A DNA stretch of 31,121 nucleotides from Candidatus Sumerlaeota bacterium (GTDB taxonomy: Bacteria; Sumerlaeota; Sumerlaeia; JADFCT01), in assembly GCA_026398575.1 (NCBI GenBank), contig JAPLSP010000049.1:1-31121 (forward strand), read 5' to 3'. Position 1 is the first letter of the stretch. Every line of letters begins with the position of its first letter. Positions 1,622-30,982 of this stretch are shown in pieces. The notes beneath the pieces are model-generated. The model was given only the letters and a program-made list of their open reading frames with translations. It was not told the origin of the DNA and did not search any database. The position numbers and the translations under genes are program-made.

Positions 1622-1668
1622 ATTGCCTTGGCGGATTGCGGCAGGCGAAGGACAGCAAGGACAACAAA

Positions 1669-1731
1669 GACCTCAAGGACAAGAGGCCGAGTGATAAGGT
1701 GTAAGCCTCTTTGAAATTTGTCCTTGAGGTC
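1669..1731. terminator. Bidirectional hairpin between convergent genes, built from AAGGAC repeats
   Basis: A perfect 14-bp inverted repeat (1669-1682 with 1718-1731) encloses a second stem (AAGAGGC at 1681-1687 with GCCTCTT at 1705-1711). It lies in the gap between the stops of the OmpA-like gene (+) and the PilX-like gene (-), the right place to end both transcripts. The arms belong to 9-bp tandem arrays: AAGGACNNN units at 1648-1683 and their reverse complement at about 1720-1757. Confidence 0.6.
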
Positions 1732-1769
1732 CCTTACATCCCTTTAGGTCCCTTGACCCCTTGGTCGTG

Positions 1770-15398: not shown

Positions 15399-15474
15399 AG
15401 AAATGCGCCTCCAGCGTGATGGCGGCTATTTCGTCAGAGACGCCGCCGGATGTCAACCGGGAAGGACGGACCCA

Positions 15475-15613
15475 ATGTAAAATGAAAAATGAAAATTGTA
15501 AAATGCAAAATGACAGTCCATCCCGGCAATGGAAATTTACGGCCCGCGTCATTTGCCTGCCGCGCGCGGCTTCATTTTCAATTTCTCATTTTACATTTTG
15601 CATTTTGCATTAT
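15475..15613. repeat. Inverted pair of AAAATGNAAAATG arrays
   Basis: An array of AAAATG/AAAATGC-type units at 15475-15513 faces its reverse-complement family at 15571-15613. The two can pair to form a long AT-rich hairpin in the gap between pyrC and the phosphodiesterase gene. The right arm runs into the coding end of the phosphodiesterase (residues about 160-169). Confidence 0.75.
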
Positions 15614-16826: not shown

Positions 16827-19800
16827 TCAGTCTCCCTTCTTCTTCGCGGCAGATTTGTTCTCCGCCGGACTGGATTCCATGCGTTTGAGCAGGTCTCGAA
16901 TCGTTTTGAGAATGTGCTCGTTCGAATACACAGCCGGCAGCTGCGCGGCGATGGCCTCGAGACGCGCGCGGAATGGCTTCAGACTTGCCGGGTCTTTGAT
17001 GCGAGTCAACTGGGTAATGACCCCGAAGTTAAGATACTTCTCATCGGAGTTCAGGTACTCGAGCAGCACGGGACGCCCCGCCTCTTCATCGCCGAGGATC
17101 AAGAGGCTCACCGCGGCGCGAATCCGGATTTCCTGCGAAGAGTCCGTCAGCATTCCTTTCAGGATCGGAATGTTTTTCTCCCGGTCCGCAGGCGCGCCTT
17201 CGGCCAGGCGTTCGGCGGCTTCGCGGCGGCCTTCTTCGTCCTTTTCGCCTGCAATGAGGCGGTAAAATTCCTGCGACGCGCCCGGGCCGATCTTGCGCAC
17301 GGCTTCCAAGATGTGCCGCGGTTCGAGCAGTTCCTCGTCGGCAATGGGATTGAGCGGCTTGGACACGCCCGCGCTTTTGAGCTCATTCCAATCGGCGCCG
17401 ATCGCGTCCATCGAGCGCAGATGATCGTATTGCGCCGTCATAGCCGCCTGCGACTGCGCAATGCGGAAGCCGGACCCTGCGCGGCGCTTCTCGTCGTTGC
17501 GCGCGTCAATATAGAGCTCGGCCATGCGCGCCAGCGATGGCGCCGCCTTCAGTTCGCCGAGCGCCCAGACAATCGAAGCGCGCGCAAGGCCGCTCTCCAG
17601 ATCGAGCGCCTGAATCAGCGGCGGAATCGAAGAGGAATCGCCGATGGCGCCGCACGCGCGTGCCGCGTTCGAGCGGACGATGCGGTCCTTGCTCGCCAGC
17701 GCCTCGTGCAGGAGAGGCAGCATTTCCTTTCCGGTGGCGCCAAAGACGATTTGCGCGAACTCGGTGGAAACGCGGTTATGTTTATCGGCATTATGCGCGC
17801 TCAAAAGGACCTGCGCCGATTCCGGCGATTTGCGCAGCGCAGCGGCCAGCGCGGGTAGAACGTCGCGGTTGGAGCCATCTTCAAGCAGACGATAACGCGC
17901 GAGCGGATATTTCAGGAAGACCTTGAACAGCTCCGGATCGGCATGTTGAGCCACGGCGCGATAGATATGTTCCTCTGACGCGATGACCCCGATGGTCGAG
18001 AACGCGCCGAAAGGATAGTTGCTGTATGACTCGCGGCGCTTGAGGATATCTTCAACCGCCGTCGCGTCGGGCCGCTGGCCTTTGCGCGCAAGGCCGAGCA
18101 GGGCGGCGGCGCGTATTTTGGGATCATGGTCGTTCATCGCGCGTTCGAGCGGCGCGGCGGCGGCAACGTCCGATGAATGGGATAATAAAAAAATAGCCGT
18201 GGCGCGTGCGCGCGGGAACGCATCGGCAGCGCCTTGAGCCAGCAGCGGCGTGAATTCCGCTGCCTTTTCCTTGTCCTTGTCGAACTGCCCGAGCAACGTC
18301 GAGAGCGCCTCGGCGCGCAGATAGGGATTCGGCGATTCAAGGTAGCGCTGCAAATCCTCGGGCGAGTTAATGCGCATCTTCGACCGCTCCTGTCGCGCCT
18401 CTTCTTTTTGCTTTTCATCCGGACTGGTCTCGACCTTGACAGTCATGTACGTCTTGTTGGCGGCAGCAGCGAGCGCGGTCGTGCTCTGATCGCTCGTGAC
18501 GACCATGCCGCGCGTGCCGCACAGATAAGTCCGGCCTTCAAACTTCGATTCGCTCAGGATGATGCCGCCAAGCAGCGGCAGCGGTTTGGAATCGCCATAC
18601 TTTTCCTTTCTTTCCTTCGCGCGTTTGTTCATTTCCGTATCGTCGAAAATCATAGGCTTGCCGGCGGCGGTGAATGTTCGCATTTTCGGGTCGTAGTACC
18701 CCGCCGGGAATTGGCGATAGTGATAGCCGCCGCCGCGCCCGTATTCCACGTCATAAACGATGCGCAGCCGTTCGCCCTCCACCTCGATCGAAGCGATCTT
18801 GTTGGTAGCGAGGCCGTCGGATAGGACCAGCGACGTGAAGACGTGCGTCTTGGGATCATAGACTCCAAGCCCGCCGCCATGATCGCCCCATCCCGTGCTG
18901 AAGTAGATCAGCCCACCGAGTTTCACCGCGCTAGTCACGCGGTTGGCGCACAACCCATCGCCGCGCGTATAGCGGGCAAAAACCGCGCCATTCTTGCCCA
19001 GCACTGCGACGCCTCGGTTTGTGCAAACCCACGTTTGCATCGTCTCCGGGTCATGGGAAGCGCAATAGGCAGTTCCGCCCGGAAGCCCTTGGAATTCCGT
19101 TCGGCCCATGCCCGATGATATCCTGTTTCCCTTGGACGATCCCGCAGGAACAAAATATAACCCGCCTTCATTGTCCCGTGTTTCCCAGCAATGCGGATCG
19201 AATGGGCTCTCGTTCCAGCGCGAAGTATGCGTACCAAGCGCCCACTTTCCGTTCCCCAACTCAGACATCTGCCAGTTGGAGGCCGCGGCCACCGCCCGCG
19301 ACGGACACTTGAATATGCTTTTTTGCGCGGGAGTATTTGACGTCGCATAGTCGCTCGATATCAGTTCGATTCCGTTCTTGAGCGCCGCGGGCATATCAGA
19401 ATCGAAGGGAACGCATTCCTCGTTTTTGTTTTTCGGGAGCGGTTTCAAGACGCCTGCCGATGCGTCGTAGTAGTACGGCTGATAGAAGGGGCCAAAAACC
19501 GGCTTACCGTTCCACTTGCCCTGGTACGGCATCGGTTCGCCCATCATGATTTCCTCGCCGCGATTTGTCACTTCCTGAATAAGCACGGCGGTCGTCTCGA
19601 GCGTGTCGCGGTCAATCAGGCAGGGGCGATTGCGCAGTTTGTCATTGAGATAGACGTCTCCCCAGAGGGCGCCGTCCACAACGCCGATCAGGCTCACGGG
19701 CTTCTCGTTGCACAGAACACGCGTCCAGCGATCCGATTTGCGGTCGTAACGCAACAGCCCGTTATAGATGCTGGCCCAGACGTAGTCCTTCTCGACCAGA

Positions 19801-22800
19801 AAACGCCCGCAGTCGCACGAATGCTCGATGCCCAATTCCTCCGACGAAAACACGCGCATAACGTTGCTCGTGATGTCCAACCGCTGAATGTTGCGCCGCG
19901 TTCCGATCCAAAGGAAGTCGCCATCGAGCGCAAGAGTGAGCGCGCCCGTGGGGCCATAGTCACGCTTGCGGTTCTTCATCTCTTGCGGTGGTAGGTCCTG
20001 ATCGAGATCGAGCCAAGTCAGATTGATAGGTGGATTCGCTCTTGAGCTGAATACAGAACTGATCCCAATCCGGCAAACGCCTAAAGGCAGCGCCGCCCAC
20101 AAGTCTCTGCCGTACGCCAAAGCGTGGATTTCACCGCCCAAGGGTATGCGCGTGTACAGCCTGCCTTTAATGTCGTACAGGCTAATTCCACATGGTGTTC
20201 CGACAAGGAAATAATCATCGGCAGGTTGCATTGAAAGGATGTCCTCCAGGCTGGCATAGAGCCAAACGCCTTTGGGAATGCTGTTCCATCTCTGAGCCAT
20301 GATGGTATCCATGCCTTCAAGCGAATCGGCAGTTGGCGCGACCTCACGGCGGCGCGCGAGCTGGCGCTTGGCTGGGAAATCGCCCAGCGATTTCCAGATT
20401 TCATTCAATTGCGTCTGGGTTTTGTCGTCCGCGAACTGGATCAATAGCGCGAGCGCGCCGTTAAGGTCTTCGGGCCAGTCATTCGCATCACGATAGCGCG
20501 TCTCGTTCTCGTCCTTGTTCCACCATGCCTCAAACGGCTTTTCACCCTTGGCCAACCGCAGACCGAGCGCGCGGAGCTTGTCCAGTTGATCCGCCTTTTC
20601 ATAGAGGCGCATCAGGCGATAGGCGAGATCGTAGTAGTTGCGGAACTGCGTGCGGTTATAAACGCCCTTGCCGCGCGCAAAGGCGGCGCTGGTCTCATCG
20701 GGATTAGCGTTCAGCAGGATTTCCAGGGACTCAATGACGGCAGGCCCCTCGAAGCGGTCTTCGAGGTCGAGCAGTTCGAGGCGCGTGCGCGCGTCTTTGG
20801 GATTGGCCTCGACGATCGCCGCCAGAAGCATGCGCAGTTGATCCTTGCCTTTTTGGCGGAAACGCTCCTTCCATTGTTCCCAGTCATAATAATAATACGT
20901 TCCGTTTTTTTGGCCGGTGATCCCTCGCGCCAGCGCCTTGGCGGCAGCGGGGAGGTCTCCGGCGAACCATGCAAGCGTGGCGCGGGCCGAAGGATTCTTT
21001 GCCAGAGTCCGCGTCAGCGTTGTCTCGGACTGGTCGGACGCGTCGGACGCGTCGGACCGGTCTGATGCCACGAGAAGATTTTTTGCCCAGAGGCGGAACT
21101 CTTCTTCCTTTCCCTCCGTGCGGAAGCGCTGCGCGGTCTGAGACATCATCTCGAAATTTCCGAGGAAGTTGGCATCGGATTCGTATTGCTTGAGCGCGAG
21201 GCGCATCGCCTTGTCGTTCTGCCCCAACGCAGTATAGAGGCGGTTGAGGCGTTCCATGATTTCGCGCCGCAAGCCTTCCGAAGGCTGCCCGCCCATCCCG
21301 CCAAATCGGCCCCATCGCATCGGCATGGCCATCTGGCTCATCATCGCGCGTTGCGTCGCCTCTTCGTCCTCATCGGGAAGGTCGAGCGTTTCAGGCGGAA
21401 GCGCGAGCGCCTTTTCAAATTCAGCGGCGGCCTCCGCGTTCTTCTTGAATTCCTCATACACGCATCCAAGGCGGTAGGCGGCGGTCAATGGCTTGAAGAA
21501 AGCTCCGTTTATATAAGCCTGCTCGCAGCGCAGCGCTTCTTCGTCGTTTCCCTGATGCAGATAAAGCCGCGCCAGCACGCGCGTCTCGGGGCGCCTGCCA
21601 CCGGGTGAAAGTTTCTCGAACGAGCTGAGGGATTTGCGATAGTTCTCGATCAGTTCCTTTTCTTTCCCTGCGTCCTTGAAGGCGCCGAATGCCAGGCGGA
21701 TGAATTCCTTGCGGGACACGCCGGCAAGCGCCATGCCGAAGTAGCGCGTGCGGCGCAGCATCCTGACGGGATAATCATCATCGAATCCCTTTCGATAGGG
21801 ACGGCTGTCGGCGAATCTCATGTTGTTGGGATTGCGGTCGAGGTCAATGCGCGCGAGAACCTCGCTTAAAATTTTCAGCGCTTCATCGCTTCTGCCGCCA
21901 CGCTTGAGGAAGTAAGCGTAATCCAGCGCGAATTGCAGCCCCATGCCGTCGAACCCCGAGGGATAAACGACGGTTTTTTGTGGAATGGGATGGGTGGACG
22001 GGGTGGACACGGTGAACGAGGTGGACGGAGTGGACGGAGCAATGAAATCAATGCCTGGCGGAAGACCTTCGAAGCCGGGCGCCGGCCAGGGAGCGCCTTG
22101 AACAATGACAAAAGGGCTTGCGTCGGCTTGATGGATTTTCCAGATGCGCGCGAATTCTTTCTCCGCGTCCGCCGTCGCTTCGAGCGCGATGAAGCGGCGG
22201 ATGAGCCAGTTATCGCGATGGCTTCCAGGGCCGGCCATCATCGGCAAGAGCGGCTCGGACCAGCGATCCCAGCCGAAGCCGTATCCCTCCGGCTGTTTGT
22301 CCTGCGGCGGCTCGCAGGGATAATAATCCCAGGGCATGAGGCCCTTGTCCCATGCGGTCGCAGTCGGGGCGGACGTGGGGGTGGACGCTGTGGACACGGT
22401 GGACGCGGTGGACGCTGAGGAGGTGATAGCTGCAGCTGATGCTGCGACGGCCCGATACGACGCCAACGCTTCGTCCTTGCGCCCGAGCGCCAGCAGCAGA
22501 TCGCCCCTTACGACCTCGGCGCGCGGATTCCATGGCTTCGCCTCGCTTTGGATTTTTTCCACAATCTTGAGATATTCGGCGGCTTTGGGACGGGCCAATC
22601 GCGCAGCCTTGAATTCGCAACCGGGGATTTCAAGATAAAGCGCGAAGGCCTCTTTGTCTTTGCCTTCCTGCTCCAGAGCTTGGGCGCGCTGCCAGGGCGC
22701 CGGCTCGGACGGCGTCAGTGCGCGCTTCTTCTGCGCGGATGGCGTCTGTGCCGATTGCGTCAGCGCGGCGGAAGACGGATTGTCATCTACCGCCAACGCC

Positions 22801-22856
22801 CATTCGCCGATCAATAAAGTGACAGCGATTGCCGCGATCATACGAAGTGATATCAT
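16827..22856 (-). CDS. Giant exported TPR / beta-propeller / HEAT-repeat protein, function unknown
   Basis: 2009 residues from the ATG at 22856, which has AAGGAG 8 nt upstream; a longer frame to 22895 lacks support. A signal peptide (ISLRMIAAIAVTLLIGEWALA) is followed by three sections. Residues about 30-850: TPR-like helices (ALEQEGKDKEAFALYLEIPG; ARLYLHQGNDEEALRCEQAY). Residues about 850-1500: propeller-like blades (FLWIGTRRNIQRLDI; VWASIYNGLLRYDRKSDRW; TWVCTNRGVAVLGKNG), as in sensor propellers. Residues about 1530-1990: HEAT-like helices (PLERAMNDHDPKIRAAALLG; VRSNAARACGAIGDSSSIPP). The tail is Lys-rich. All three are protein-binding folds, so a large periplasmic or surface scaffold is likely; no catalytic motif is seen. 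Three 9-bp arrays encode Ser/Thr/Pro/Asp linkers at about 147-159, 273-288 and 596-611. Confidence 0.85.
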   Translation of the reverse strand: MISLRMIAAIAVTLLIGEWALAVDDNPSSAALTQSAQTPSAQKKRALTPSEPAPWQRAQALEQEGKDKEAFALYLEIPGCEFKAARLARPKAAEYLKIVEKIQSEAKPWNPRAEVVRGDLLLALGRKDEALASYRAVAASAAAITSSASTASTVSTASTPTSAPTATAWDKGLMPWDYYPCEPPQDKQPEGYGFGWDRWSEPLLPMMAGPGSHRDNWLIRRFIALEATADAEKEFARIWKIHQADASPFVIVQGAPWPAPGFEGLPPGIDFIAPSTPSTSFTVSTPSTHPIPQKTVVYPSGFDGMGLQFALDYAYFLKRGGRSDEALKILSEVLARIDLDRNPNNMRFADSRPYRKGFDDDYPVRMLRRTRYFGMALAGVSRKEFIRLAFGAFKDAGKEKELIENYRKSLSSFEKLSPGGRRPETRVLARLYLHQGNDEEALRCEQAYINGAFFKPLTAAYRLGCVYEEFKKNAEAAAEFEKALALPPETLDLPDEDEEATQRAMMSQMAMPMRWGRFGGMGGQPSEGLRREIMERLNRLYTALGQNDKAMRLALKQYESDANFLGNFEMMSQTAQRFRTEGKEEEFRLWAKNLLVASDRSDASDASDQSETTLTRTLAKNPSARATLAWFAGDLPAAAKALARGITGQKNGTYYYYDWEQWKERFRQKGKDQLRMLLAAIVEANPKDARTRLELLDLEDRFEGPAVIESLEILLNANPDETSAAFARGKGVYNRTQFRNYYDLAYRLMRLYEKADQLDKLRALGLRLAKGEKPFEAWWNKDENETRYRDANDWPEDLNGALALLIQFADDKTQTQLNEIWKSLGDFPAKRQLARRREVAPTADSLEGMDTIMAQRWNSIPKGVWLYASLEDILSMQPADDYFLVGTPCGISLYDIKGRLYTRIPLGGEIHALAYGRDLWAALPLGVCRIGISSVFSSRANPPINLTWLDLDQDLPPQEMKNRKRDYGPTGALTLALDGDFLWIGTRRNIQRLDITSNVMRVFSSEELGIEHSCDCGRFLVEKDYVWASIYNGLLRYDRKSDRWTRVLCNEKPVSLIGVVDGALWGDVYLNDKLRNRPCLIDRDTLETTAVLIQEVTNRGEEIMMGEPMPYQGKWNGKPVFGPFYQPYYYDASAGVLKPLPKNKNEECVPFDSDMPAALKNGIELISSDYATSNTPAQKSIFKCPSRAVAAASNWQMSELGNGKWALGTHTSRWNESPFDPHCWETRDNEGGLYFVPAGSSKGNRISSGMGRTEFQGLPGGTAYCASHDPETMQTWVCTNRGVAVLGKNGAVFARYTRGDGLCANRVTSAVKLGGLIYFSTGWGDHGGGLGVYDPKTHVFTSLVLSDGLATNKIASIEVEGERLRIVYDVEYGRGGGYHYRQFPAGYYDPKMRTFTAAGKPMIFDDTEMNKRAKERKEKYGDSKPLPLLGGIILSESKFEGRTYLCGTRGMVVTSDQSTTALAAAANKTYMTVKVETSPDEKQKEEARQERSKMRINSPEDLQRYLESPNPYLRAEALSTLLGQFDKDKEKAAEFTPLLAQGAADAFPRARATAIFLLSHSSDVAAAAPLERAMNDHDPKIRAAALLGLARKGQRPDATAVEDILKRRESYSNYPFGAFSTIGVIASEEHIYRAVAQHADPELFKVFLKYPLARYRLLEDGSNRDVLPALAAALRKSPESAQVLLSAHNADKHNRVSTEFAQIVFGATGKEMLPLLHEALASKDRIVRSNAARACGAIGDSSSIPPLIQALDLESGLARASIVWALGELKAAPSLARMAELYIDARNDEKRRAGSGFRIAQSQAAMTAQYDHLRSMDAIGADWNELKSAGVSKPLNPIADEELLEPRHILEAVRKIGPGASQEFYRLIAGEKDEEGRREAAERLAEGAPADREKNIPILKGMLTDSSQEIRIRAAVSLLILGDEEAGRPVLLEYLNSDEKYLNFGVITQLTRIKDPASLKPFRARLEAIAAQLPAVYSNEHILKTIRDLLKRMESSPAENKSAAKKKGD
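21024..21068. repeat. GTCGGACGC 9-bp array inside the giant gene
   Basis: Five 9-bp units (CTCGGACTG, GTCGGACGC twice, GTCGGACCG, GTCTGATGC) encode a Ser-Asp-Ala linker (ASDRSDASDASDQSE). The same family occurs twice in recQ (26210-26254, 26558-26593). Confidence 0.9.
21994..22038. repeat. GTGGACNNN 9-bp array inside the giant gene
   Basis: Five exact-length 9-bp units (GTGGACGGG, GTGGACACG, GTGAACGAG, GTGGACGGA twice) encode a Ser/Thr/Pro linker (APSTPSTSFTVSTPST). Confidence 0.9.
22381..22416. repeat. GTGGACNCN 9-bp array inside the giant gene
   Basis: Four 9-bp units (GTGGACGCT, GTGGACACG, GTGGACGCG, GTGGACGCT) encode a Ser-Thr-Val-Ala linker (ASTVSTAST). Same family as 21994-22038 and as the 12-bp version at 30633-30704. 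Confidence 0.9.
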
Positions 22857-23086
22857 GAACATCGCTCCTTCTGCGCCCTGGGACGCGAGCCCCATCCCTG
22901 CGTTGCGAGAATAAACCTTCGGTCAGGGGCTTGTCACTCTCTAAACCAAGGCAAGGCTTTGTGGCTCAAGTCATTGGCTTCGGGAAAAACTATGAATCTT
23001 CCCGCGCGGGCAGTGGTCAGAAAGAAGCAAAAGAATTGTAAAATAATTGTGCTGGAAGAAAACTTGATTCTGCTGAACTTTCATGA

Positions 23087-23115
23087 TTGACGCCCTGCAT
23101 TCTCAGTAATACGAT
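23087..23115 (+). promoter_or_regulatory. Sigma70-type promoter of cbiMQ
   Basis: TTGACG (23087-23092), a 17-bp spacer and TACGAT (23110-23115). Transcription would start near 23122, giving a leader of about 53 nt. I looked for a cobalamin riboswitch and see none. The rest of the divergent gap 22857-23174 holds nothing else I can name. Confidence 0.5.
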
Positions 23116-23174
23116 CTTTGTAAAATTCATACCGAGAGTTTTCCACCAAGAAAAATTTTTGGAGAGAAATAATC

Positions 23175-24293
23175 ATGCACATGGCCGATGCGCTGGTTTC
23201 GCCAGCCGTGGGCGGAGCGATGTGGGCCGGGGCGGGCGCGATGACGATCTATTGCGCGCGCCAGGTGCGGCTCTCGCTTGAAGAGCGCAAAGTTCCGCTG
23301 ATGGGCGCGCTGGGGGCGTTTGTCTTCTGCGCGCAGATGGTCAATTTTTCAATCCCCTTGACGGGTTCGAGCGGGCACCTCGGCGGCGGAATGCTGCTGG
23401 CGATTTTGCTGGGGCCACACGCCGCCTTCCTCACGATTGTCTCCGTGCTGGCGATTCAAGCCTTGTTTTTTGCCGATGGCGGATTGCTGGCGCTGGGCTG
23501 CAATATCTTCAACCTTGGTTTTTTTCCATGCTTCATCGCTTATCCGCTGCTCTATCGAACCATCGCAGGGACCCGGCTTAATACCAAAAGAATCTGGACC
23601 GCTTCGATGATCGCCTGCATCGCGGGACTGCAGATGGGCGCGATGGGCGTTGTTTGCGAGACGCTCTTTTCAGGCGTCTCCGCGCTGCCTTTCGGCAAAT
23701 TCGCCCTGCTCATGTTTCCGATTCATCTGGCCATCGGCGCCGTTGAGGGCGCAGTGACCGCTTCGATGATGATCTTTGTCCTGAAGGCGCGGCCCGGATT
23801 GCTATTAGCTCCGAGTTCCGGAAGCTCAGTTCCGAGTTCCGAGTTACGAGTTACGAGTTCGGGAGGCTTTGGCGTGCTTCGGAATCCGGTTCTTATTGGA
23901 TTCCTGGCGGTGGCGATGCTGACGGGAGGCGTGTTGGCATTATTCGCTTCGAAGAACCCGGACGGACTGGAATGGGCGGCGGCGCGCACAACGGGACAAG
24001 AGGAACTGACCGCGCCGGCAAAAGGCGTCTATGCATGGCTGGCTAAGGTGCAGGAAAGAACCGCGATGCTGCCAGACTATCAGTTCAGGGGGCAGGGGTC
24101 AGGGGTCGGGGGCCAGAGAACCGCAGGCAGAAAGCTGGAGGCGGGGGAAGCAAGGCAGGAATTGCTTTGGGCGGATTGGGGGACATCCGTGTCTGGTTTC
24201 GTCGGAGGTTTGATTACACTGGCGGTGGCGGGACTCATAGGATTTGGATTGAGAAAGAAAACGCATGAGCAATCTATTCGCAGCATTGGTTGA
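23175..24293 (+). CDS. cbiM: Cobalt/nickel ECF transporter substrate-binding protein, CbiM with CbiN-like C-terminal part
   Basis: 372 residues. The protein opens with MHMADALVSP: the N-terminal Met-His pair is the metal ligand in CbiM/NikM, and GSSGHLGGGML supplies the second His (His68). Six or seven membrane helices follow to about residue 210. A second part (about 230-372) has one helix, NPDGLEWA (the PDGLE motif of CbiN/NikN partners), a periplasmic loop and a final helix, so CbiM and CbiN functions are fused. Two 7-bp repeat arrays encode low-complexity segments: Ser-rich at about 218-229 at the fusion point, and Gly/Gln-rich at about 304-314 in the loop. The start is fixed by the Met-His ligand and GGAG. 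Substrate Co or Ni cannot be told. It overlaps cbiQ by 29 bp. Confidence 0.9.
   Translation: MHMADALVSPAVGGAMWAGAGAMTIYCARQVRLSLEERKVPLMGALGAFVFCAQMVNFSIPLTGSSGHLGGGMLLAILLGPHAAFLTIVSVLAIQALFFADGGLLALGCNIFNLGFFPCFIAYPLLYRTIAGTRLNTKRIWTASMIACIAGLQMGAMGVVCETLFSGVSALPFGKFALLMFPIHLAIGAVEGAVTASMMIFVLKARPGLLLAPSSGSSVPSSELRVTSSGGFGVLRNPVLIGFLAVAMLTGGVLALFASKNPDGLEWAAARTTGQEELTAPAKGVYAWLAKVQERTAMLPDYQFRGQGSGVGGQRTAGRKLEAGEARQELLWADWGTSVSGFVGGLITLAVAGLIGFGLRKKTHEQSIRSIG
23827..23861. repeat. GAGTTCC/GAGTTAC 7-bp array in cbiM
   Basis: Five 7-bp units (CAGTTCC, GAGTTCC, GAGTTAC, GAGTTAC, GAGTTCG), with a degenerate extra copy upstream from 23811. The array encodes the Ser-rich joint between the CbiM and CbiN parts. 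A 7-bp period does not preserve frame per unit, so copy number must be constrained here. Confidence 0.85.
24086..24115. repeat. CAGGGGT 7-bp array in cbiM
   Basis: Four 7-bp units (CAGGGGG, CAGGGGT, CAGGGGT, CGGGGGC) encode RGQGSGVGGQ in the loop between the last two helices. Related to the array at 13741-13794. Confidence 0.8.
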
Positions 24294-25080
24294 TTTTGGG
24301 CGGATGGACGCGCTGGCTGCGCAGGACACGCCCGTTCATCGCCTGGACCCGCGCGCCAAGGTCATCGTAACGCTGCTGTTCATTTTCTGCGTCGCATCAT
24401 TTCATAAATATGCGATATTGGCGCTGTTGCCTTTCGTCATATTCCCGGTGGCGCTGATGGCCGCCGGCGCCGTGCCTGCCGGATACCTTTTCAAAAAATT
24501 GCTTCTGGTCGCGCCGCTGGCTTTGTTGATCGGCGTCTTCAATCCAATCTTCGACCGTGAGGCATTCACGCGACTGGGTCCCGTCGCCATCTCCGGCGGA
24601 TGGGTTTCATTCTGCTCGATCGCAATTCGGTTTATTCTTTGCCTGAGCGCCGCGCTGATTCTCATTGCCACGACGGGCGTCTATTCCATCGCCCTCGCGC
24701 TCGAGCGGTTGTGGGTTCCGCGCGCGCTAGTGATCCAAATGCTTTTTCTCTATCGCTACATCTTCGCGCTGCTCGAGGAATTCGCGCGGATCCATCGCGC
24801 CTGGTCCCTGCGCGCGCCCGGCGCCAGCCGCATCGCGATAAACGTCTTCGCCTCGCTGACCGGGCAGCTCTTGCTGCGGACCCTGGATCGCGCGCAGCGT
24901 ATTCATTGGGCGATGCTGGGGCGCGGTTTCGACGGGCGCTTTCACCTGAGCAAGCCGCTGAAATCGCGATGGACCGATTGGGCCTATGGCTTGGGATGGA
25001 CGGCGTTTTTTGTCCTCGCGCGCCTGTGGAATCTGCCGCAATTAATTGGCGAGGGCGTGATGCGCGCGCTGGCGGGATAA
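24265..25080 (+). CDS. cbiQ: Energy-coupling factor transmembrane protein CbiQ
   Basis: 271 residues, a normal length. TPVHRLDPRAKVIVTLLFI is the usual N-terminal signature. Four to six hydrophobic helices follow, and the cytoplasmic coupling helices carry the two A-R-G-like motifs: RAPGASR (about 180) and MLGRGFDGRF (about 218), which contact the ATPase subunits. It transmits ATP hydrolysis to CbiM for Co or Ni uptake across the inner membrane. It begins inside cbiM (29-bp overlap), so the two are translationally coupled. The cbiO ATPase gene expected next is not in the window; a large hairpin and nuoA follow instead. Confidence 0.93.
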   Translation: MSNLFAALVDFGRMDALAAQDTPVHRLDPRAKVIVTLLFIFCVASFHKYAILALLPFVIFPVALMAAGAVPAGYLFKKLLLVAPLALLIGVFNPIFDREAFTRLGPVAISGGWVSFCSIAIRFILCLSAALILIATTGVYSIALALERLWVPRALVIQMLFLYRYIFALLEEFARIHRAWSLRAPGASRIAINVFASLTGQLLLRTLDRAQRIHWAMLGRGFDGRFHLSKPLKSRWTDWAYGLGWTAFFVLARLWNLPQLIGEGVMRALAG

Positions 25081-25105
25081 AATGCTGAAGCGTGTCTATT
25101 AGGGC

Positions 25106-25197
25106 TGGCGCCGAATGGTAGGCCGTTCCGCTCCGTCGGACGGCCATCGCGCGCCAAGGCCGTCCGACGGAGCGGAACGGCCTACCATGCGGCGCCA
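25106..25197. repeat. 40-bp inverted repeat with 12-nt loop
   Basis: Arms 25106-25145 and 25158-25197 are reverse complements with a single mismatch; 31 bp at the inner side are perfect. It lies 26 bp after the cbiQ stop. It would form a very strong hairpin in RNA, able to end the cbiMQ transcript, though there is no T-run. The arms carry GTCGGAC/GTCCGAC, the same core as the 9-bp coding arrays, and look like a mobile palindromic element. Confidence 0.85.
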
Positions 25198-25289
25198 ACG
25201 TCATCGGCTTTTTTGCGGTTGACCCCTTTGGAAAAACTCACTATTTTACCCTGTCTGTTCGCGCAGACCCGCGCGCGCAGGGACTGGGA

Positions 25290-25310
25290 GCGCCAGCATC
25301 CTGCTGGCGC
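25290..25310. repeat. Short palindrome GCGCCAGCA-TCC-TGCTGGCGC
   Basis: A perfect 9-bp stem with a 3-nt loop lies 45 bp before nuoA. The sequence GGAGCGCCAGCATCCTGCTG resembles short palindromes I associate with intergenic dispersed repeats in PVC-type genomes; that association is from memory and untested here. Confidence 0.6.
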
Positions 25311-25354
25311 GTTCCGCATACCCGTGCGCGCAGAGATAAGAAGGACGCCCACTT

Positions 25355-25771
25355 TTGGATATTCTATTTCAATTCTCCAATGTCTGGCTGTTCGCCATTG
25401 CAGGCGTGGCGTTCGTATTGGCCGCGATGTTCGTGGGTGTTCTCTTCCGCCCGGCTCGCTACGAAAAAGACAAGACGCGCATTTACGAATGCGGCGAGCC
25501 GACCATCGGCTCTTCCTGGATCCGCTACAACATGCGGTTCTACGCCGTGACGCTGGTCTTCCTGGTGTTCGACGTCGAAGTCGCCGTGCTGCTGCCCGTG
25601 GCGGTTGTCATCCGCGAACTCGGCGTCATGGGGCTGCTGGAAATCTTTTTCTTCATCGGCATCCTGCTGATCGGGTTCATTTATGCCTGGCGCTTCAGAG
25701 CCCTGGAATGGGTCAAGACTGGCGGCGAACCCGAAGAAAAAAAATCGTACCTAAACAACGGTGTTAGGTAA
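25355..25771 (+). CDS. nuoA: NADH-quinone oxidoreductase subunit A, stand-alone
   Basis: 138 residues. It is a membrane subunit of respiratory complex I. Three helices are visible (about 7-30, 63-84, 92-114). The family core YECGEPTIGSSWIRYNMRFY and FLVFDVEVAVLLPVAV is intact, including the acidic DVE pair in the second helix that lines the quinone region. The start is TTG, with AAGAAGGA about 9 nt upstream; no ATG fits. The usual partners nuoB, nuoC and nuoD do not follow: the next gene is recQ on the other strand. The gene is therefore cut off from the rest of the complex I operon, or the operon is split in this genome. Confidence 0.93.
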   Translation: MDILFQFSNVWLFAIAGVAFVLAAMFVGVLFRPARYEKDKTRIYECGEPTIGSSWIRYNMRFYAVTLVFLVFDVEVAVLLPVAVVIRELGVMGLLEIFFFIGILLIGFIYAWRFRALEWVKTGGEPEEKKSYLNNGVR

Positions 25772-25818
25772 GCCCAAACTTGAAGTTGCGCTTGAGCACG
25801 GATAAATGCGTGGATTAT

Positions 25819-28116
25819 TTAGCTTTCAGAAGCGGGACCCAACTCTTCTCCTTTTGCATTCTTTAAACACGCCAGGCAAATCCTGATTTCCTCATAGGCG
25901 ACCGATCCTTGCAGCAGCTCGAAAATCGGCGCGAGGGTTTGCATGCCCGCTTTCTCCGCCGCCTTTGCCACCCGCTCGAAAGTCTCGTCGTTGACCCAAG
26001 GCGCCGGATGAATCAAGCCCCGGCGTTCGATATAGTCCTGCAAATAACTTCCGGTGGTCGAGCGGGCGCGCCCTACGGTGGCGGCTGCTTCATCCACACC
26101 TACTCCACGGTCGAATAGATCGAAAGCCATTTCCTTGGCCAGCGAAAGATCCTGACGCTTGGACGCGGGAAGCCCTGCCGTCGGAAGCGCTTCTAAAAGG
26201 TCTGGCGCCGTCGGACCAGTCTGACTCGTCTGACCGGTCCGACCAGTCCGACTCCACCCAGCTTCTCCAAAAAGCCTACCCGCCGGCGCCACATCCATCG
26301 CCAGAGAATTTGTTTCGCAATAATCGCGAATTTTTTCAAGGAACAGCTTTCCATACTGCTGGCATTTCGCCTCGCCTACCCCCGTCACCTGGAGGAAGCC
26401 TTCGCGCGACGAGGGGCGGCGGCGCGCCATGTCCCGCAGCGCGGCGTCGCCAAAGACGATATAGGCCGGCAGTTGTTTTGCTTCAGCGATTTCTCTCCGC
26501 AGTGTTCGCAGGCTCTCGAACAAGCCGCGATCCACCCCCTCCCATGAATCCGCCGCCGTCGGACTGGTCAGACGGGTCGGACGGGTCGGACGGCGCTTTT
26601 CTGGGGCCAGCAACAGCGGCGTCTCCTGCCCCTTCAGCGCGCGCCATCCCTTCGGTGTCACGCTCAATGTCTGGAATTCCCCATCCTTCGCCATGCATCC
26701 CTGCGAGACCAGCTGCTCGATCCACGCCCGCACGTCCCCTTTCGGCGACGCCTTGAGCAGACCATAAGTGCTCAGCGTCTGATGGCCGTTGGTCAGAATC
26801 CGTTGTTCCTGCGAACCGGTCAGCACGGACGCCGTATAATCCCCGCCAAACCGCTCTCCCAGCCTTACGACGCACGAAAGAATTTTTTGCGCCGTCACCA
26901 GTGAATCGTCCAGCGGACGAAGGCTGTCCAGACAAACGTCGCACGCCTGGCAGTTGTCCTTCTCAAGCGTTTGCCCGAAATAGCCCACCAGCGCCGCATG
27001 GCGGCAGCCCACCCCGCCGCAGTAGTCCTGAATGCTCCGCAATTTTGCGAGACTGATCTCCTGCCCTACCGGTTCGCCTGCCTGCAGGATGTATCGCCAT
27101 GTGACAAAGTCATCCCCTCCAAACAGCAGCACACACTCGGCCTCCAATCCATCGCGCCCGGCCCTTCCGCTTTCCTGCTGATAATGCTCCAGCGACTTCG
27201 GCGCCCCCGCGTGAACCACATAGCGCACGTTCGACTTATCAATCCCCATCCCGAAAGCCACCGTCGCCACCATGATGTCCGCCTGCTCGCTGATGAAAGC
27301 ATCCTGATTGCGCTTGCGGGCGCCGTCCGCCATCCCGGCGTGGTAGGGCGCCGCGCGGTAGCCGCGCATCTGAAGCGCCGCGCACATCTCGTCCACGTCC
27401 TTGCGCCGGATGCAGTAAACAATTCCCGACTCGCCTTTGTGCCGCTCGATCACTTCGCACACCTGCGCCAGCTTCTCGCGCCGTCGCTCGACCCGATACA
27501 CCAGATTCGGGCGGTCGAACGACCCCACCAGTATTTCGGGATTCTCGAGGCCCAGCTGCTCGGCGATATCGCGGCGCACGTGTTCGGTCGCCGTGGCCGT
27601 ATAGGCATGAAGCGCCGCGCCCGGCAGCGCTGTTTTCAGCGCGCGCAACTGCCGGTATTCCGGTCTGAAATCATGCCCCCACATGCTCACACAGTGCGCC
27701 TCATCCACGGCGACGAATGACACCGGCTGCCCGCGCAGGAAGTCCAGAAAGCCATCCGTCAGCAGCCGCTCCGGCGACACATACAACAGGTGAAGCCGCC
27801 CCTGCCGCAATCCCTCACGGACGGCGCTCTGTTCCATCCCCGTCTGCGAACTGTCCAGCCGTCCCGCCGCCACCCCGCAATCCGTCAGCGCGTCCACCTG
27901 ATCCTTCATCAATGCGATCAGCGGCGAAACCACGATGGCGAATCCCGGCATGGCCACCGCCGGCGCCTGGAAGCAGAGCGACTTTCCTCCGCCCGTCGGC
28001 AGCACGACAACCGAATCGCGCCCCGCCGCCACTGCCGCCATCGCCTCGCGCTGCAACGGAAGGAAGCTTTCATACCCCCAATATTTTTTCAGGATTTCCT
28101 GGATATTGTTCAGCAT
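25819..28116 (-). CDS. recQ: RecQ-family ATP-dependent DNA helicase
   Basis: 765 residues from the ATG giving MLNNIQEILKKYWGYESF, which matches typical RecQ starts; an in-frame ATG at 28158 would add 14 residues. It unwinds DNA 3'-5' in repair and fork restart. Walker A TGGGKS (41-46), DEAH (138-141) with the aromatic-rich loop HCVSMWGHDFRPEY, YTATATEHV and QESGRAGRDG make a full helicase core. Cysteines near CGGVGC and CQACDVC form the RecQ zinc site, then come a winged helix, an HRDC domain (about 525-600; PAYIVFGDAALRDMA) and a C-terminal helical/HTH domain (SLAKEMAFDLF onward). Two 9-bp arrays encode linkers on either side of HRDC (about 508-520, 621-636). Confidence 0.95.
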   Translation of the reverse strand: MLNNIQEILKKYWGYESFLPLQREAMAAVAAGRDSVVVLPTGGGKSLCFQAPAVAMPGFAIVVSPLIALMKDQVDALTDCGVAAGRLDSSQTGMEQSAVREGLRQGRLHLLYVSPERLLTDGFLDFLRGQPVSFVAVDEAHCVSMWGHDFRPEYRQLRALKTALPGAALHAYTATATEHVRRDIAEQLGLENPEILVGSFDRPNLVYRVERRREKLAQVCEVIERHKGESGIVYCIRRKDVDEMCAALQMRGYRAAPYHAGMADGARKRNQDAFISEQADIMVATVAFGMGIDKSNVRYVVHAGAPKSLEHYQQESGRAGRDGLEAECVLLFGGDDFVTWRYILQAGEPVGQEISLAKLRSIQDYCGGVGCRHAALVGYFGQTLEKDNCQACDVCLDSLRPLDDSLVTAQKILSCVVRLGERFGGDYTASVLTGSQEQRILTNGHQTLSTYGLLKASPKGDVRAWIEQLVSQGCMAKDGEFQTLSVTPKGWRALKGQETPLLLAPEKRRPTRPTRLTSPTAADSWEGVDRGLFESLRTLRREIAEAKQLPAYIVFGDAALRDMARRRPSSREGFLQVTGVGEAKCQQYGKLFLEKIRDYCETNSLAMDVAPAGRLFGEAGWSRTGRTGQTSQTGPTAPDLLEALPTAGLPASKRQDLSLAKEMAFDLFDRGVGVDEAAATVGRARSTTGSYLQDYIERRGLIHPAPWVNDETFERVAKAAEKAGMQTLAPIFELLQGSVAYEEIRICLACLKNAKGEELGPASES
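26210..26254. repeat. GTCNGACNN 9-bp array in recQ, downstream linker
   Basis: Five 9-bp units (GTCGGACCA, GTCTGACTC, GTCTGACCG, GTCCGACCA, GTCCGACTC) encode SRTGRTGQTSQTGPT between the HRDC and C-terminal domains. Confidence 0.9.
26558..26593. repeat. GTCGGACGG 9-bp array in recQ, upstream linker
   Basis: Four 9-bp units (GTCGGACTG, GTCAGACGG, GTCGGACGG twice) encode RPTRPTRLTSPT between the winged helix and HRDC domains. Same family as 26210-26254 and 21024-21068. Confidence 0.9.
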
Positions 28117-28189
28117 AAATTGCGCGGCTTTTCCCCAGTCATTAGAGATTATCACCATTGTCCCGTCCGGCGTCCGGGACCTACTTGCG

Positions 28190-29131
28190 TCAATATACCC
28201 ACGCCGGAACGCCGGCGTATTGCATTAACTGGCTGGCGATTTCTTGAAGTTTTTCTGGCGCAACCGCTAGTACTTCCGGATCGGCGGGGACGCGGTCTAT
28301 GGAATACACTTGCGCCCCCGCGGGACGAATCCGCCCAATGGCTTCAATCCATTGCTCGACGTGCTCATCCGTTGTGTTGTCCACCTTGCCGCGGATGAAC
28401 ATGGTTTGCGTGATGCAGGCGGGCAGGAGGCGGATGTGTTCGATCAGGCGCTCGACGGTAATGAGGATCAGCGGGGCGTTGATTTTTTGAAGCAATTCAT
28501 CGTTGGCGGCATCCAACTTCAGGATGCGCTCGTCGGCGATCATGAGCGCTTCGCGAATGCGCGTCTCGCCCAGCGTGGTCGCATTCGAAAGCGCCACGAG
28601 CCGCGCGCGCGCCGCCCAGCGATCCCGCGTCTGCGCCAGCCCCCGCATGATTTCGGCAAATTGTGGATGAAGCGTCGGCTCGCCGTTGCCCGCCAGCGTG
28701 ATCGCATCCAGTTCTCGCCCTTCCGCCTGAAACCGCTCCAAGACTTCGGACAATGCCGAAATCACCTCTTCGGGAGATGGAAATTGCGGACTGTGGATTG
28801 ACGATTGACGATTGACGATTGACGATTGAGGAATGCGAATTGACGATTGAGGAATGCGAATTGACGATTGACGATTGACGATTGACGATTCATTTGGCGT
28901 GGGTTTCACTATCTCAGATGATGGCTGGGCTGCCGGGCACTGGCTAAAGCATTCGTCAATCGTCAATCCAAAATCGTCAATCCTCTCTGTGTGTCCGCAT
29001 TCGCAATAGACGCAATTGAACGAGCATACCTTGCGCTGAGGCGGCAACAGGTTGACGCCCAGCGAAACGCCATAACGCCGCGACTGTACAGGCCCAAATA
29101 TGATATCCGACAATACGCCTTTGACTTTCAT
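28190..29131 (-). CDS. Radical SAM protein with repeat-derived insertion
   Basis: 313 residues from the ATG giving MKVKGVLSDIIFGPVQSRRY, the usual start of this family. Upstream in-frame codons come from a 10-bp repeat array and are not coding. C36-x3-C40-x2-C43 (CSFNCVYC) binds the 4Fe-4S cluster that cleaves SAM; LAGNGEPTLHP is the GGE-like motif, and later strands (LVALSNATTL, KLDAANDELLQKINAP) match small radical SAM proteins of the 'GPVPSRRLG' type, whose substrate is not known to me. Residues about 55-120 are an insertion absent from the relatives I recall; its core (81-112) is Ser/Ile/Arg/Gln/Pro-rich and encoded by a 7-bp array. It lies between the YprB-like gene and recQ, same strand. 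Confidence 0.85.
   Translation of the reverse strand: MKVKGVLSDIIFGPVQSRRYGVSLGVNLLPPQRKVCSFNCVYCECGHTERIDDFGLTIDECFSQCPAAQPSSEIVKPTPNESSIVNRQSSIRIPQSSIRIPQSSIVNRQSSIHSPQFPSPEEVISALSEVLERFQAEGRELDAITLAGNGEPTLHPQFAEIMRGLAQTRDRWAARARLVALSNATTLGETRIREALMIADERILKLDAANDELLQKINAPLILITVERLIEHIRLLPACITQTMFIRGKVDNTTDEHVEQWIEAIGRIRPAGAQVYSIDRVPADPEVLAVAPEKLQEIASQLMQYAGVPAWVY
28796..28890. repeat. GATTGAC 7-bp array in the radical SAM gene
   Basis: Seven-bp units GATTGAC are repeated in two blocks of at least three, separated by two copies of a GATTGAG-GAATGCGAATTGAC compound unit. A short inverted set of GTCAATC units lies at 28955-28982 in the same gene, so the two can pair. The array is in frame and free of stops on the coding strand. 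Confidence 0.9.
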
Positions 29132-29165
29132 AATTCCGATAGCCTTTGGATTATGCATGGGATTA

Positions 29166-29215
29166 CACGGACCGACACGGACTGGCACGGACTGGCACGG
29201 ACTAACGTGGACTGA
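29166..29215. repeat. CACGGACTGG 10-bp array upstream of the radical SAM gene
   Basis: Five 10-bp units (CACGGACCGA, CACGGACTGG twice, CACGGACTAA, CGTGGACTGA) lie in the gap between the exonuclease stop and the radical SAM start. The 10-bp period is not a multiple of three, which fits a non-coding location. Confidence 0.9.
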
Positions 29216-29278
29216 TGCAAAATGGCGCCAGCGTCCCAGTGATGTAAATGGCAATTCCCTCCGCCCACCTCGCTTTGT

Positions 29279-30772
29279 CTATTTCAATATTTCTGTTTCC
29301 AGTTTGCTGCTCAGGCGTCGGGCGCGTTTTTCCAAATCCTCCAGAAAAACTCTCAAGCGTTGCGCTTCCTCGGCGCGGCCCATGTCTTCGAGCAATTGCG
29401 ATTGGCTCAGGCAATAAGCGCGGGCGCGTTCGGCCACCTCGGCGGCGCGCGCATAATCGCGCTGCTTGTGCTCCAGGAGTTTGGCTAGTTCTATGAACGC
29501 CCCCACATTATGCGGCTGGGGCGTCGCGGTGTGGCTCGCCCAAACGTCCACAGCCTCGGTGTAGCGCGCCTGCCGCTTATAGAGGCGCGCGATATGACTG
29601 GAGACATGAAAGATCAGCTGCGGATCGCGCGCCACAAGCAACGCCCGCTCCATGCATTCGAGCGATTCGCCGACGCGCCCGCTCCATTCGATCAAATGCG
29701 CCAGCCCCAGCAGCGCCAGCGGATGATCCAGAGGCGCGGCCGCGGGCTGTCGCGTCAGGCGTCCCAGCAGCCCCAGCAGCGAAGCCAGCGAGATGATGTC
29801 TTGCGCGTTGTGATCCAATACCGGCCGCATCCGTTCGCGCCGCACGCCGTTGACGAAATCGAAAAAAATGCGAGGCACGAGCGCTCCCGGCACGTCGCTG
29901 TGGCGTCCGCCCAGGTTGAGGACCTTGCCTTCAACAGTCGAAAGGCTGCAATCGGGCAGCGCCTTTTTCCAGACGCGCCTCGCCGGAAAAAGCAAATCCA
30001 GATTAGGCTCATCCAGCGAGCGGGCCACGCTGTTGAAGAGGAACCGCGTGCGCAGCAGCGGCGCGTCGAAGTTCCGGCCATTATAGGTGACGAGCGCGCG
30101 GAAGCGATCCAGGCGCTCGGCGATCGCGTGCATCACCGCTCCTTCGCGGTCGTAGTCTTCCATGAAAAATTGTTCGACGGTCAGGACGCCGTCTTCGATC
30201 CATCCCAGCCCGACGAGAAAGGCGTACGTCCCCGCGCCGCCCGACAGGCCGGTTGTCTCAACATCGAGCATGACCAGATCGCCGAGAGCCATTCCCTCGA
30301 ATGCGTTGTCGCGCCCGATTGAGACAAAGTCCCGATCCGTCAGCGCGGGGATCATCTCGCGCATCGGCAAAACATATTTCTCTTCGCCGGAGTTTGCGGG
30401 AGGATTCTCATCCGGATTGCGATCGAGTCTGAGGCGATGCACGATCCGGATCAGCGGCCCATGCGGCGTTTCGAGCCGCTCGGCGTTATCGAAGAGCGCG
30501 ACGCAATCCCCGGTAGCGGAGCGTTTGGGGGCAAGGCGGCGGTTCATTAATTCGCTAGCCCTGAAAACCTTGCCTCCCAGCGATTCGATCAGGCGACTGG
30601 CGGCGGAGTTATTAGCTGTAGCAGGAGCCGGCGTGGAAGGGGATGTGGACGAAGGAGTGGACAATGGGGTGGACAAAGGCGTGGACGAAGGAGTGGACCG
30701 TGACACGGGCGGACGATCCGTGCGCGCGGCTTTAGCCGCTTTAAGCCGCTCCAATTTGGCGCGCAGGTCCAT
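29279..30772 (-). CDS. YprB/MrfB-like DEDDh exonuclease with TPR domain
   Basis: 497 residues. The RNase H-like core (about 165-340) carries the DEDDh residues: Asp170 and Glu172 in LDVETTGLSGG, Asp236 in TYNGRNFDAPLL, and His321 and Asp325 in DHNAQDIISL. It is followed by TPR-like helices (about 350-480; ALLGLAHLIEWSGRVGESLE). This order matches Bacillus YprB (MrfB), a 3'-5' exonuclease that works with the helicase MrfA in repair of mitomycin damage. Residues 23-46 are a Ser/Thr/Pro linker from a 12-bp array, after a basic helix (LRAKLERLKAAKAA). In Bacillus the helicase gene is adjacent; here the nearest helicase is recQ, one gene away. Function in repair is inferred. Confidence 0.85.
   Translation of the reverse strand: MDLRAKLERLKAAKAARTDRPPVSRSTPSSTPLSTPLSTPSSTSPSTPAPATANNSAASRLIESLGGKVFRASELMNRRLAPKRSATGDCVALFDNAERLETPHGPLIRIVHRLRLDRNPDENPPANSGEEKYVLPMREMIPALTDRDFVSIGRDNAFEGMALGDLVMLDVETTGLSGGAGTYAFLVGLGWIEDGVLTVEQFFMEDYDREGAVMHAIAERLDRFRALVTYNGRNFDAPLLRTRFLFNSVARSLDEPNLDLLFPARRVWKKALPDCSLSTVEGKVLNLGGRHSDVPGALVPRIFFDFVNGVRRERMRPVLDHNAQDIISLASLLGLLGRLTRQPAAAPLDHPLALLGLAHLIEWSGRVGESLECMERALLVARDPQLIFHVSSHIARLYKRQARYTEAVDVWASHTATPQPHNVGAFIELAKLLEHKQRDYARAAEVAERARAYCLSQSQLLEDMGRAEEAQRLRVFLEDLEKRARRLSSKLETEILK
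30633..30704. repeat. GTGGACNNNGGN 12-bp array in the exonuclease gene
   Basis: Six exact 12-bp units (GTGGAAGGGGAT, GTGGACGAAGGA, GTGGACAATGGG, GTGGACAAAGGC, GTGGACGAAGGA, GTGGACCGTGAC) encode the Ser-Thr-Pro linker near the N-terminus. Shares its GTGGAC core with the 9-bp arrays at 21994 and 22381. Confidence 0.9.
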
Positions 30773-30840
30773 AAGCTAGATGGAAATTGCAGGTCCTATC
30801 CGGATTAGCAGGCTTTCCGATTTGCTCTGACAAGCCAACG

Positions 30841-30982
30841 ACAACAAGGACAACAAGGACCGCAAGGACAATGGATCGTGAAAAATTGCATAATTCCTTT
30901 GAAAATCGAGGACCTTGCGGCTTTGCTGTTCCTTGCAGTCCTTGCAGTCCTTGCGGTCCTTGTGGTCCTTGTGGTCCTTGCC
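30841..30982. repeat. Inverted pair of AAGGACNNN 9-bp arrays, candidate terminator
   Basis: Units ACAACAAGG, ACAACAAGG, ACCGCAAGG at 30841-30874 face six reverse-complement units (CCTTGCAGT, CCTTGCGGT, CCTTGTGGT) at 30931-30982. They can fold into a long hairpin just after the stop of the right-edge gene. An open frame across this block (Thr-Arg-Ala repeats) is a by-product of the repeats. Same family as 1648-1757. Confidence 0.85.

Follow-up and report, generated by a model that had tools for sequence, protein, structure and literature searches.

Tandem arrays of the 9-bp unit GTCNGACNN lie within two unrelated genes in a 31,121-nt stretch of DNA from a Candidatus Sumerlaeota bacterium (contig JAPLSP010000049.1; the whole stretch is referred to here as the window). 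The family to which they belong, whose unit is GTC-N-GAC-NN with free positions 4, 8 and 9, is dispersed patchily across several phylum-level genome samples and viral contigs. Our tentative reading, which we place somewhat short of probable, is that GTCNGACNN arrays are a dispersed short-tandem-repeat family of the same kind as heptameric repeats and repetitive extragenic palindromic (REP) elements, that they work as folded elements 3′ of genes, and that the copies found inside genes are tolerated survivors. An initial annotation of the window had attributed the arrays to a dispersal mechanism and not to slippage. The dispersed distribution of the family and the absence of repeats from the aligned homologues agree with this proposal, but the targeting of gene linkers that it implied is not supported.

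Spread of the repeat family

A three-unit GTCNGACNN pattern was searched for in six phylum-level samples, each named after the record title of its sample centre. The pattern was present in 36 of 680 genomes, compared with 5 of 680 for a backwards control, the same pattern reversed, which has equal composition and is likewise self-complementary. Matches were found in 16 of 145 genomes of the Verrucomicrobiales sample, 5 of 46 in the sample centred on a "delta proteobacterium" record, 3 of 149 each in the planctomycete and Acidobacteria samples, and 1 of 151 in the Dehalococcoidia sample. Eight of 40 genomes of the Sumerlaeaceae sample carried 9–34 matches each, and the other 32 carried none. 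The sharing of a repeat core by unrelated genes, as initially annotated, thus extends to unrelated genomes, far above the backwards control. In one genome, G182, 33 overlapping matches were spread over 22 contigs, while the counts for G401 and G224 stem from one or two long arrays. One of these, an array of about 25 units (G401:C347:5527-5749) whose N4 is C or T and whose spacers are AA or CA, suggests recent expansion. G181, the genome nearest to the window, had no three-unit GTCNGACNN match.

Four GTCNGACNN units were also present in 69 stretches of viral contigs (L252-L320), the highest number being six arrays in 6.7 kb (L265). The four viral contigs checked encode recognisable portal, major head, terminase or baseplate proteins; some of the viral arrays lie between phage structural genes, and most lie inside called genes. 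No description of the GTCNGACNN family was found among the papers listed by a literature search that left subscription papers uncovered and for which a degenerate motif is unsearchable as text.

Placement relative to genes

Placement was determined in 11 genome samples, mostly taken around matches, with a simple gene finder. Of 88 arrays, 48 were in codirectional spacers, 9 in convergent spacers, 1 in a divergent spacer and 26 in coding sequence, with 4 at contig edges. Thus, 58 of the 84 placeable GTCNGACNN arrays in these relatives were intergenic, mostly shortly after a stop codon, in DNA of which genes make up 81–91%. The spacers of at least 25 bp available to them amounted to 97 kb codirectional, 21 kb convergent and 50 kb divergent. 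Codirectional arrays began a median of 17–20 nt past the end of the upstream gene and lay a median of 48–49 nt from the next start; 37 of the 48 began at most 34 nt past the upstream gene, and missed genes are the probable source of a few large distances. Dispersal into gene linkers was therefore not borne out. The 26 in-gene arrays were read in three phases (18, 7 and 1 arrays by the gene finder), SDx being the commonest (18). In the relatives sampled this kind of repeat is mainly intergenic, and its copies within genes are more plausibly tolerated members of it than products of a system for dispersal into gene linkers.

Arrays within genes of the window

The tandem arrays of the window are far beyond chance. 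With Tandem Repeats Finder (period 6–15, at least 3 copies, score at least 40), 18 non-overlapping arrays were detected, nine with a period of 9 bp, seven of 7 bp and one each of 10 and 12 bp. Simulated windows contained a mean of 0.05 (order-1 Markov) or 0.02 (order-5) arrays, with a maximum of 1 each in 60 simulations per order. Array density was 0.58/kb in the window vs at most 0.37/kb in 80 RecQ-anchored control loci from other genomes. An Rfam scan of the window returned nothing at the gathering score. All arrays named in the initial annotation were found where it had placed them, in three genes:

16827..22895, minus strand: giant exported protein (TPR, HEAT) with three arrays
21024..21068: GTCNGACNN array in the giant protein, read as SDx, residues about 610-624 (alignment with 10 homologues)
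21992..22037: GTGGACNNN array in the giant protein, residues about 287-301 (alignment)
22380..22415: GTGGACNNN array in the giant protein, residues about 161-172 (alignment with 10 homologues)
25819..28158, minus strand: RecQ helicase with two arrays
26210..26254: GTCNGACNN array in recQ, HRDC-HTH_40 linker
26558..26593: GTCNGACNN array in recQ, RQC-HRDC linker
29279..30772, minus strand: exonuclease (RNase_H_2/TPR, MrfB-like) with a 12-bp array
30633..30698: 12-bp GTGGAC-unit array in the exonuclease N-terminal linker, clean from 30645

The named arrays do occupy linkers or near-terminal positions, and in the giant protein two of them are insertions: relative to 10 aligned homologues (of 98 found; 41–46% identical), the array at 21024..21068 corresponds to about 21 additional residues and that at 22380..22415 to about 20, while the array at 21992..22037 falls in a stretch whose length differs among homologues. 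The description as insertions fits less well elsewhere. The exonuclease N-terminal linker is also present, without the repeat, in the nearest homologues (8 of 120 listed were aligned), and the RQC-HRDC linker of RecQ is only partly longer than those of its homologues; in the exonuclease, and in part in RecQ, the array thus takes the place of, or extends, a linker shared with homologues. The RecQ repeat was missing from all 15 aligned homologues (15 of 120 listed, 57–63% identical), and no GTC-N-GAC array was found in the DNA of nine RecQ loci from other genomes, where the best scores were 11–13 of 18 core positions. The initial annotation had allowed that orthologues carrying the same linkers would mark these as ordinary inherited low-complexity protein. 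Since the aligned homologues of all three proteins lack the repeats, and none of the nine RecQ loci matches more than 13 of the 18 core positions, that possibility is ruled out. The recQ arrays are read in a PTx phase, and their DNA core is that of the SDx-phase array of the giant protein.

Two homologues had features of their own. P0071, a RecQ homologue, carries a longer insertion at the place of the HRDC-HTH_40 array. Among homologues of the giant protein, P0133 from Planctomycetes contains an in-frame tandem insertion of PHPDPLPKGEG units about 40 alignment columns after the second array of the window protein, and a shorter one further on. Among 15 genomes of the Sumerlaeota sample, the giant protein gave weak partial matches in 3 only, which made comparison of its arrays impossible. 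The exonuclease is closest, among 40 Sumerlaeota-sample genomes, to that of G181 (58% over residues 181-491), and its first taxon-named homologues are Sumerlaeota. The window SerRS is closest, among 30 other genomes, to two planctomycete records (55–56%) and one Spirochaetes record (54%).

Inheritance of arrays and constraint on the core

Array sites were compared between G182 and its sister species G183, with occupancy scored as core positions matched out of 18. Flanks were found in G183 for 23 of 24 G182 arrays, and 21 sites were compared (2 were without a fetched locus and 1 without a match). Nineteen of the 21 were occupied and two were not; 18 of the occupied sites scored at least 14, and one, with its interval cut short, scored 12 and shows four units in the alignment. 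In the other direction, 5 of 20 G183 arrays were already covered, and of the 15 queried, 13 were compared: 11 were clearly occupied in G182, one was ambiguous (its score of 14 matched the best random score) and one was empty. With 30 of 34 sites clearly occupied in both, active hopping was not seen between the sister species, and the unit number of shared arrays changes between them. In G184, G185 and G187, none of nine places matched by 33–162-nt flank pieces, for which orthology is unproven, carried an array (best 12 of 18); G184 and G185 carry the family at other places. Array sites thus seem, from these sequence comparisons, to differ between more distant genomes. Because sister sites are shared and the distant places are empty, sites seem to be seeded rarely and then inherited.

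Within the unit, the two triplets and the spacers evolve differently. At the 19 shared sites, G182–G183 identity was 0.868 for the core (n=416) and 0.551 (n=69) and 0.385 (n=104) for N4 and N8N9, respectively, compared with 0.684 (n=3427) at the third codon positions of genes in the flanks and 0.690 (n=387) in noncoding flank within 25 bp. Spacer identity falls under every yardstick, as a result of unit gain, loss or shuffling, or of misaligned units. A period-9 scan without preset fixed positions gave a similar picture. In G182, positions 4, 8 and 9 varied in 14, 25 and 20 of 26 arrays, respectively, position 7 in 11, and the other five positions in 0–4; in G184, positions 4, 8 and 9 varied in 10, 10 and 12 of 13 arrays. 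The pattern was less clear in the small samples from G091 and G187. The core is near-fixed both in noncoding arrays and in frames of differing phase, as judged from simple open reading frames. Near-fixation of GTC and GAC in noncoding DNA and in several frames, together with turnover of the N positions, points to constraint on the nucleic acid and not on a peptide. Arrays comprised 3–8 units in 87 of 88 cases; an 11-unit array (L176), nearly uniform, was left out of the count.

Folding and proposed mechanism

An array can fold back on itself through GTC-GAC pairing, which predominates in the six folds printed, while the N positions are mismatched. Folding of 57 arrays was better than that of shuffled sequences (mean z −2.0). 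Inverted pairs are common in other array families: 35 of 146 intergenic arrays had an inverted partner within 180 bp. The corresponding counts were 1 for reversed, 7 for complement and 8 for direct partners; in genes, 3 of 53 arrays had an inverted partner. The self-pairing core, the better-than-shuffled folds and the inverted pairs of other families together favour a folded transcript, and a folded element 3′ of genes would be the likeliest role of GTCNGACNN arrays. The N positions of an array lean towards all purine or all pyrimidine on a strand (outer bins 20 and 16 of 87 arrays vs 6.0 and 5.5 expected), and the class of N4 agrees with that of N8N9 in 43 arrays, with 23 disagreeing and 21 ties (p 0.019).

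Under the proposed mechanism, an array would be seeded rarely at a new place and then inherited, with 9-bp units gained and lost. GTC would pair with GAC, such that the transcript 3′ of a gene forms a stem that is regularly mismatched at N, and the two triplets would be kept because they pair with each other. Copies within genes would be lost unless they leave the frame open and encode a harmless linker peptide (SDx, PTx or STP); the recQ, giant-protein and exonuclease arrays of the window may be such survivors, and their in-frame linker positions would fit removal of other in-gene copies by selection. A more specific form of this proposal, that GTCNGACNN is a trans-phylum, phage-borne nucleic-acid element in which purifying selection keeps the self-complementary triplets, with unpaired spacers of one purine or pyrimidine class per strand and a length-tolerant, regularly mismatched 3′-side stem that works at any unit number, appears rather improbable.

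Several observations weigh against the reading of the arrays as folded, 3′-side elements. The three GTCNGACNN arrays of the window all lie in genes, and the balance in viral contigs, for which the gene finder was trained on all contigs pooled, is opposite to that in the relatives: 73 of 106 arrays were in called genes, with 27 in codirectional spacers, 1 in a divergent spacer and 5 at edges. Orientation with respect to transcription was weak (N4 pyrimidine in 30 arrays, purine in 15 and tied in 3; 26 vs 19 over all N positions). Noncoding flank at least 25 bp away from the arrays was 0.826 identical (n=506) between the sister species, near the value for the core, and sister alignments may favour core matches. 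The core is therefore above neutral only if near flank and third codon positions serve as the yardstick, and the distant flank may hold unannotated constrained sequence. Within arrays, identity was 0.94–0.96 for the core and 0.34–0.48 for N positions, the former biased by the selection of most arrays on their core, and the family label of the period-9 scan likewise uses the consensus core. Folding was slightly worse than that of N-randomised arrays (z +0.6), and complementary N4 pairs were depleted (0.14 vs 0.31). Core changes that keep a G-U pair on the sense strand numbered 15 vs 9 in codirectional and 4 vs 7 in coding arrays, which was not significant. Runs of at least four T residues followed 6 of 48 arrays, hardly commoner than the approximately 8% at random places. 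Finally, the spread across genomes was determined for GTCNGACNN and not for GTGGACNNN.

Three more specific candidates were set aside. Hairpins tuned at the N positions are excluded by the comparison with random N and by the depletion at N4. By reasoning from the same depletion of complementary N positions, snap-back copying that complements spacers is disfavoured. For intrinsic termination, no clear T-tract signal was seen.

Alternative explanations

Neutral slippage, in which arrays are born locally by polymerase slippage and share a core because that sequence slips easily, seems rather unlikely, despite several observations that suit it. Unit number differs between G182 and G183, units within an array are related (shared purine or pyrimidine class 0.66–0.75), the 11-unit array is nearly uniform, and the distant noncoding flank is kept nearly as well as the core. 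Slippage nonetheless predicts equal identity of core and N positions within arrays, where 0.94–0.96 vs 0.36–0.48 was observed in arrays chosen by core; sister copies, which were not chosen in this way, still differ (0.868 vs 0.385–0.551), and the control word of equal composition was rarer. A protein that binds DNA or RNA sequence-specifically and requires GTC and GAC at fixed 4/5-nt steps, with arrays kept only in genomes that encode it, would account for fixed triplets with free spacers, for the better-kept core, for placement after a stop and before the next start, and for presence or absence within one phylum-level sample (8 of 40 genomes with 9–34 matches, 32 with none). A post-transcriptional regulator was proposed for TAACTGA repeats in the parts of that study drawn on here (MacGregor 2015, PMC4679880). 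Against such a protein stand the arrays within genes in differing phases, and there is no candidate at hand, no search for one having been made; we regard this explanation as unlikely.

The remaining two explanations fare worse. Derivation of the tandem arrays from REP elements moved by a RAYT-type transposase draws on similar placement, 3′ of genes in codirectional or convergent spacers, and on REP copies in repair genes, as given in the portions of the REP survey used here (Di Nocera 2013, PMC3733652). REPs are palindromes of 20–40 bp in contrast to the 9-bp tandem units, and this derivation is very improbable. That protein-level selection for Ser/Thr/Pro/Asp linkers made the repeats is hardly credible: the SDx phase of 18 of 26 in-gene arrays and the linker or near-terminal position of the named window arrays would fit it, but 58 of 84 placed arrays are noncoding, and the recQ arrays use the PTx phase although their DNA core is identical. 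The occurrence of this core in noncoding arrays excludes an origin at the protein level.

Other arrays of the window and of related genomes

The window contains further arrays, among them inverted array pairs at four places:

1648..1754: CAAGGACNN array with inverted partner, in the spacer between convergent genes
15474..15611: AATGAAA array with inverted partner
23828..23860: 7-bp AGTTCCG array, in frame in cbiM, between the CbiM and PDGLE domains
24085..24116: 7-bp TCAGGGG array, in frame in the PDGLE half of cbiM
28796..28985: 7-bp GATTGAC array (28796-28890) with inverted partner, in the radical-SAM reading frame
29165..29215: 10-bp CACGGACNNN array, intergenic if the ATG at 29131 is the start of the radical-SAM gene
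30836..30981: CAAGGACNN array followed by an inverted CCTTGNGGT array; 34 nt, 91% complementary

The array at 28796-28890 lies outside the shortened radical-SAM gene called by the gene finder. The rule that all periods are multiples of three is true of the arrays picked in the initial annotation and fails for the window, where 7-bp arrays also occur in open frames; the arrays of cbiM and the radical-SAM frame indicate that the rule reflects the choice of examples. The multiple-of-three requirement applies to the whole insertion and not to unit length. The CAAGGACNN and CCTTGNGGT arrays at 30836..30981 are possibly hairpin arms made of repeats.

A near-perfect palindrome of 92 bp (25106-25197) occupies the spacer between cbiQ and a nuoA-like gene. 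It is loopless, with 46-nt arms that are 93% complementary, includes GTCGGAC/GTCCGAC, and is REP- or terminator-like in look. G187 (L184-L188, L226-L239; Sumerlaeota sample) had zero three-unit GTCNGACNN matches, yet it is array-rich, with 9-bp ATAGGACCT/ATGGGACTT arrays and many 7-bp units. In G191 (L123-L132), 8- and 10-bp arrays, CACAGAGA and ACACGAATTT, occur as inverted pairs. Judged by their sequences, these two units and the CAAGGACNN and CACGGACNNN units of the window suggest 7-nt cores with 1–3 free spacer bases.

Relation to known repeats and significance

To our knowledge, short intergenic repeats have long been known without agreement on their function. The likeness to cyanobacterial repeats drawn in the initial annotation is apt, in that heptamer and REP families have a similar 3′-side distribution in the parts of those reports consulted (PMC4692102, PMC3733652). 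For the heptameric G-rich repeats GGGAATC and GGGGA(C/T)T of Xanthomonas and Nostoc, the cited portions describe genome-wide dispersal, an intergenic bias with a preference for aligned genes and gene or open reading frame ends, rarity in divergent spacers, singles or inverted pairs, and gene context that is kept in sister species (83%) while length changes (Rehm 2015, PMC4692102). In the relatives, GTCNGACNN arrays show the same dispersal, intergenic bias, divergent rarity and sister context with changed length, and inverted pairs are a further likeness. Unlike those repeats of 7 bp with G tracts, the GTCNGACNN unit has 9 bp, three free positions and a self-complementary core, without GGG at fixed positions as a quadruplex would need; a 7-bp period is found in 7 of the 18 window arrays. 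The role of the heptamer family itself was, in the part cited, still to be elucidated (PMC4692102).

TAACTGA heptamers of Beggiatoaceae, Cyanobacteria and Bacteroidetes are, in the passages used, likewise patchy in distant groups and mostly intergenic, with in-gene copies at protein margins; they differ in their 7-bp unit and in lying mostly shortly upstream of starts, whereas GTCNGACNN arrays lie nearer the preceding stop (PMC4679880). The GTAG and CGTC families of REP elements resemble GTCNGACNN arrays in their position 3′ of genes in codirectional and convergent spacers, self-complementarity, occurrence in several phyla, and in-gene copies, including in repair genes, but are described in the same excerpts as tagged palindromes of 20–40 bp, the GTAG ones linked to a transposase, in contrast to 9-bp tandem units for which no tag or RAYT search was made (PMC3733652). 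Tandem repeats of archaeal Borg elements share intergenic and in-frame copies, unrelated proteins and disordered segments; in the sections cited they are generally perfect, virtually locus-unique and A-enriched, with units divisible by three in open reading frames (Schoelmerich 2023, PMC9879509). The arrays described here have one imperfect core over many loci and genomes, and 7-bp arrays occur in the open reading frames of cbiM and the radical-SAM gene.

On the best reading, the repeat kind is already known in outline from heptamers and REPs, and its 9-bp GTC-N-GAC-NN version would be new. The contrast between fixed and free unit positions in several phylum-level samples offers a handle on such repeats, as the fixed positions show what needs preserving, and sister species reveal how arrays evolve. 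The in-gene arrays also carry a warning, that in-frame repeat linkers of unrelated proteins can arise as by-products of DNA repeats and not by protein design.

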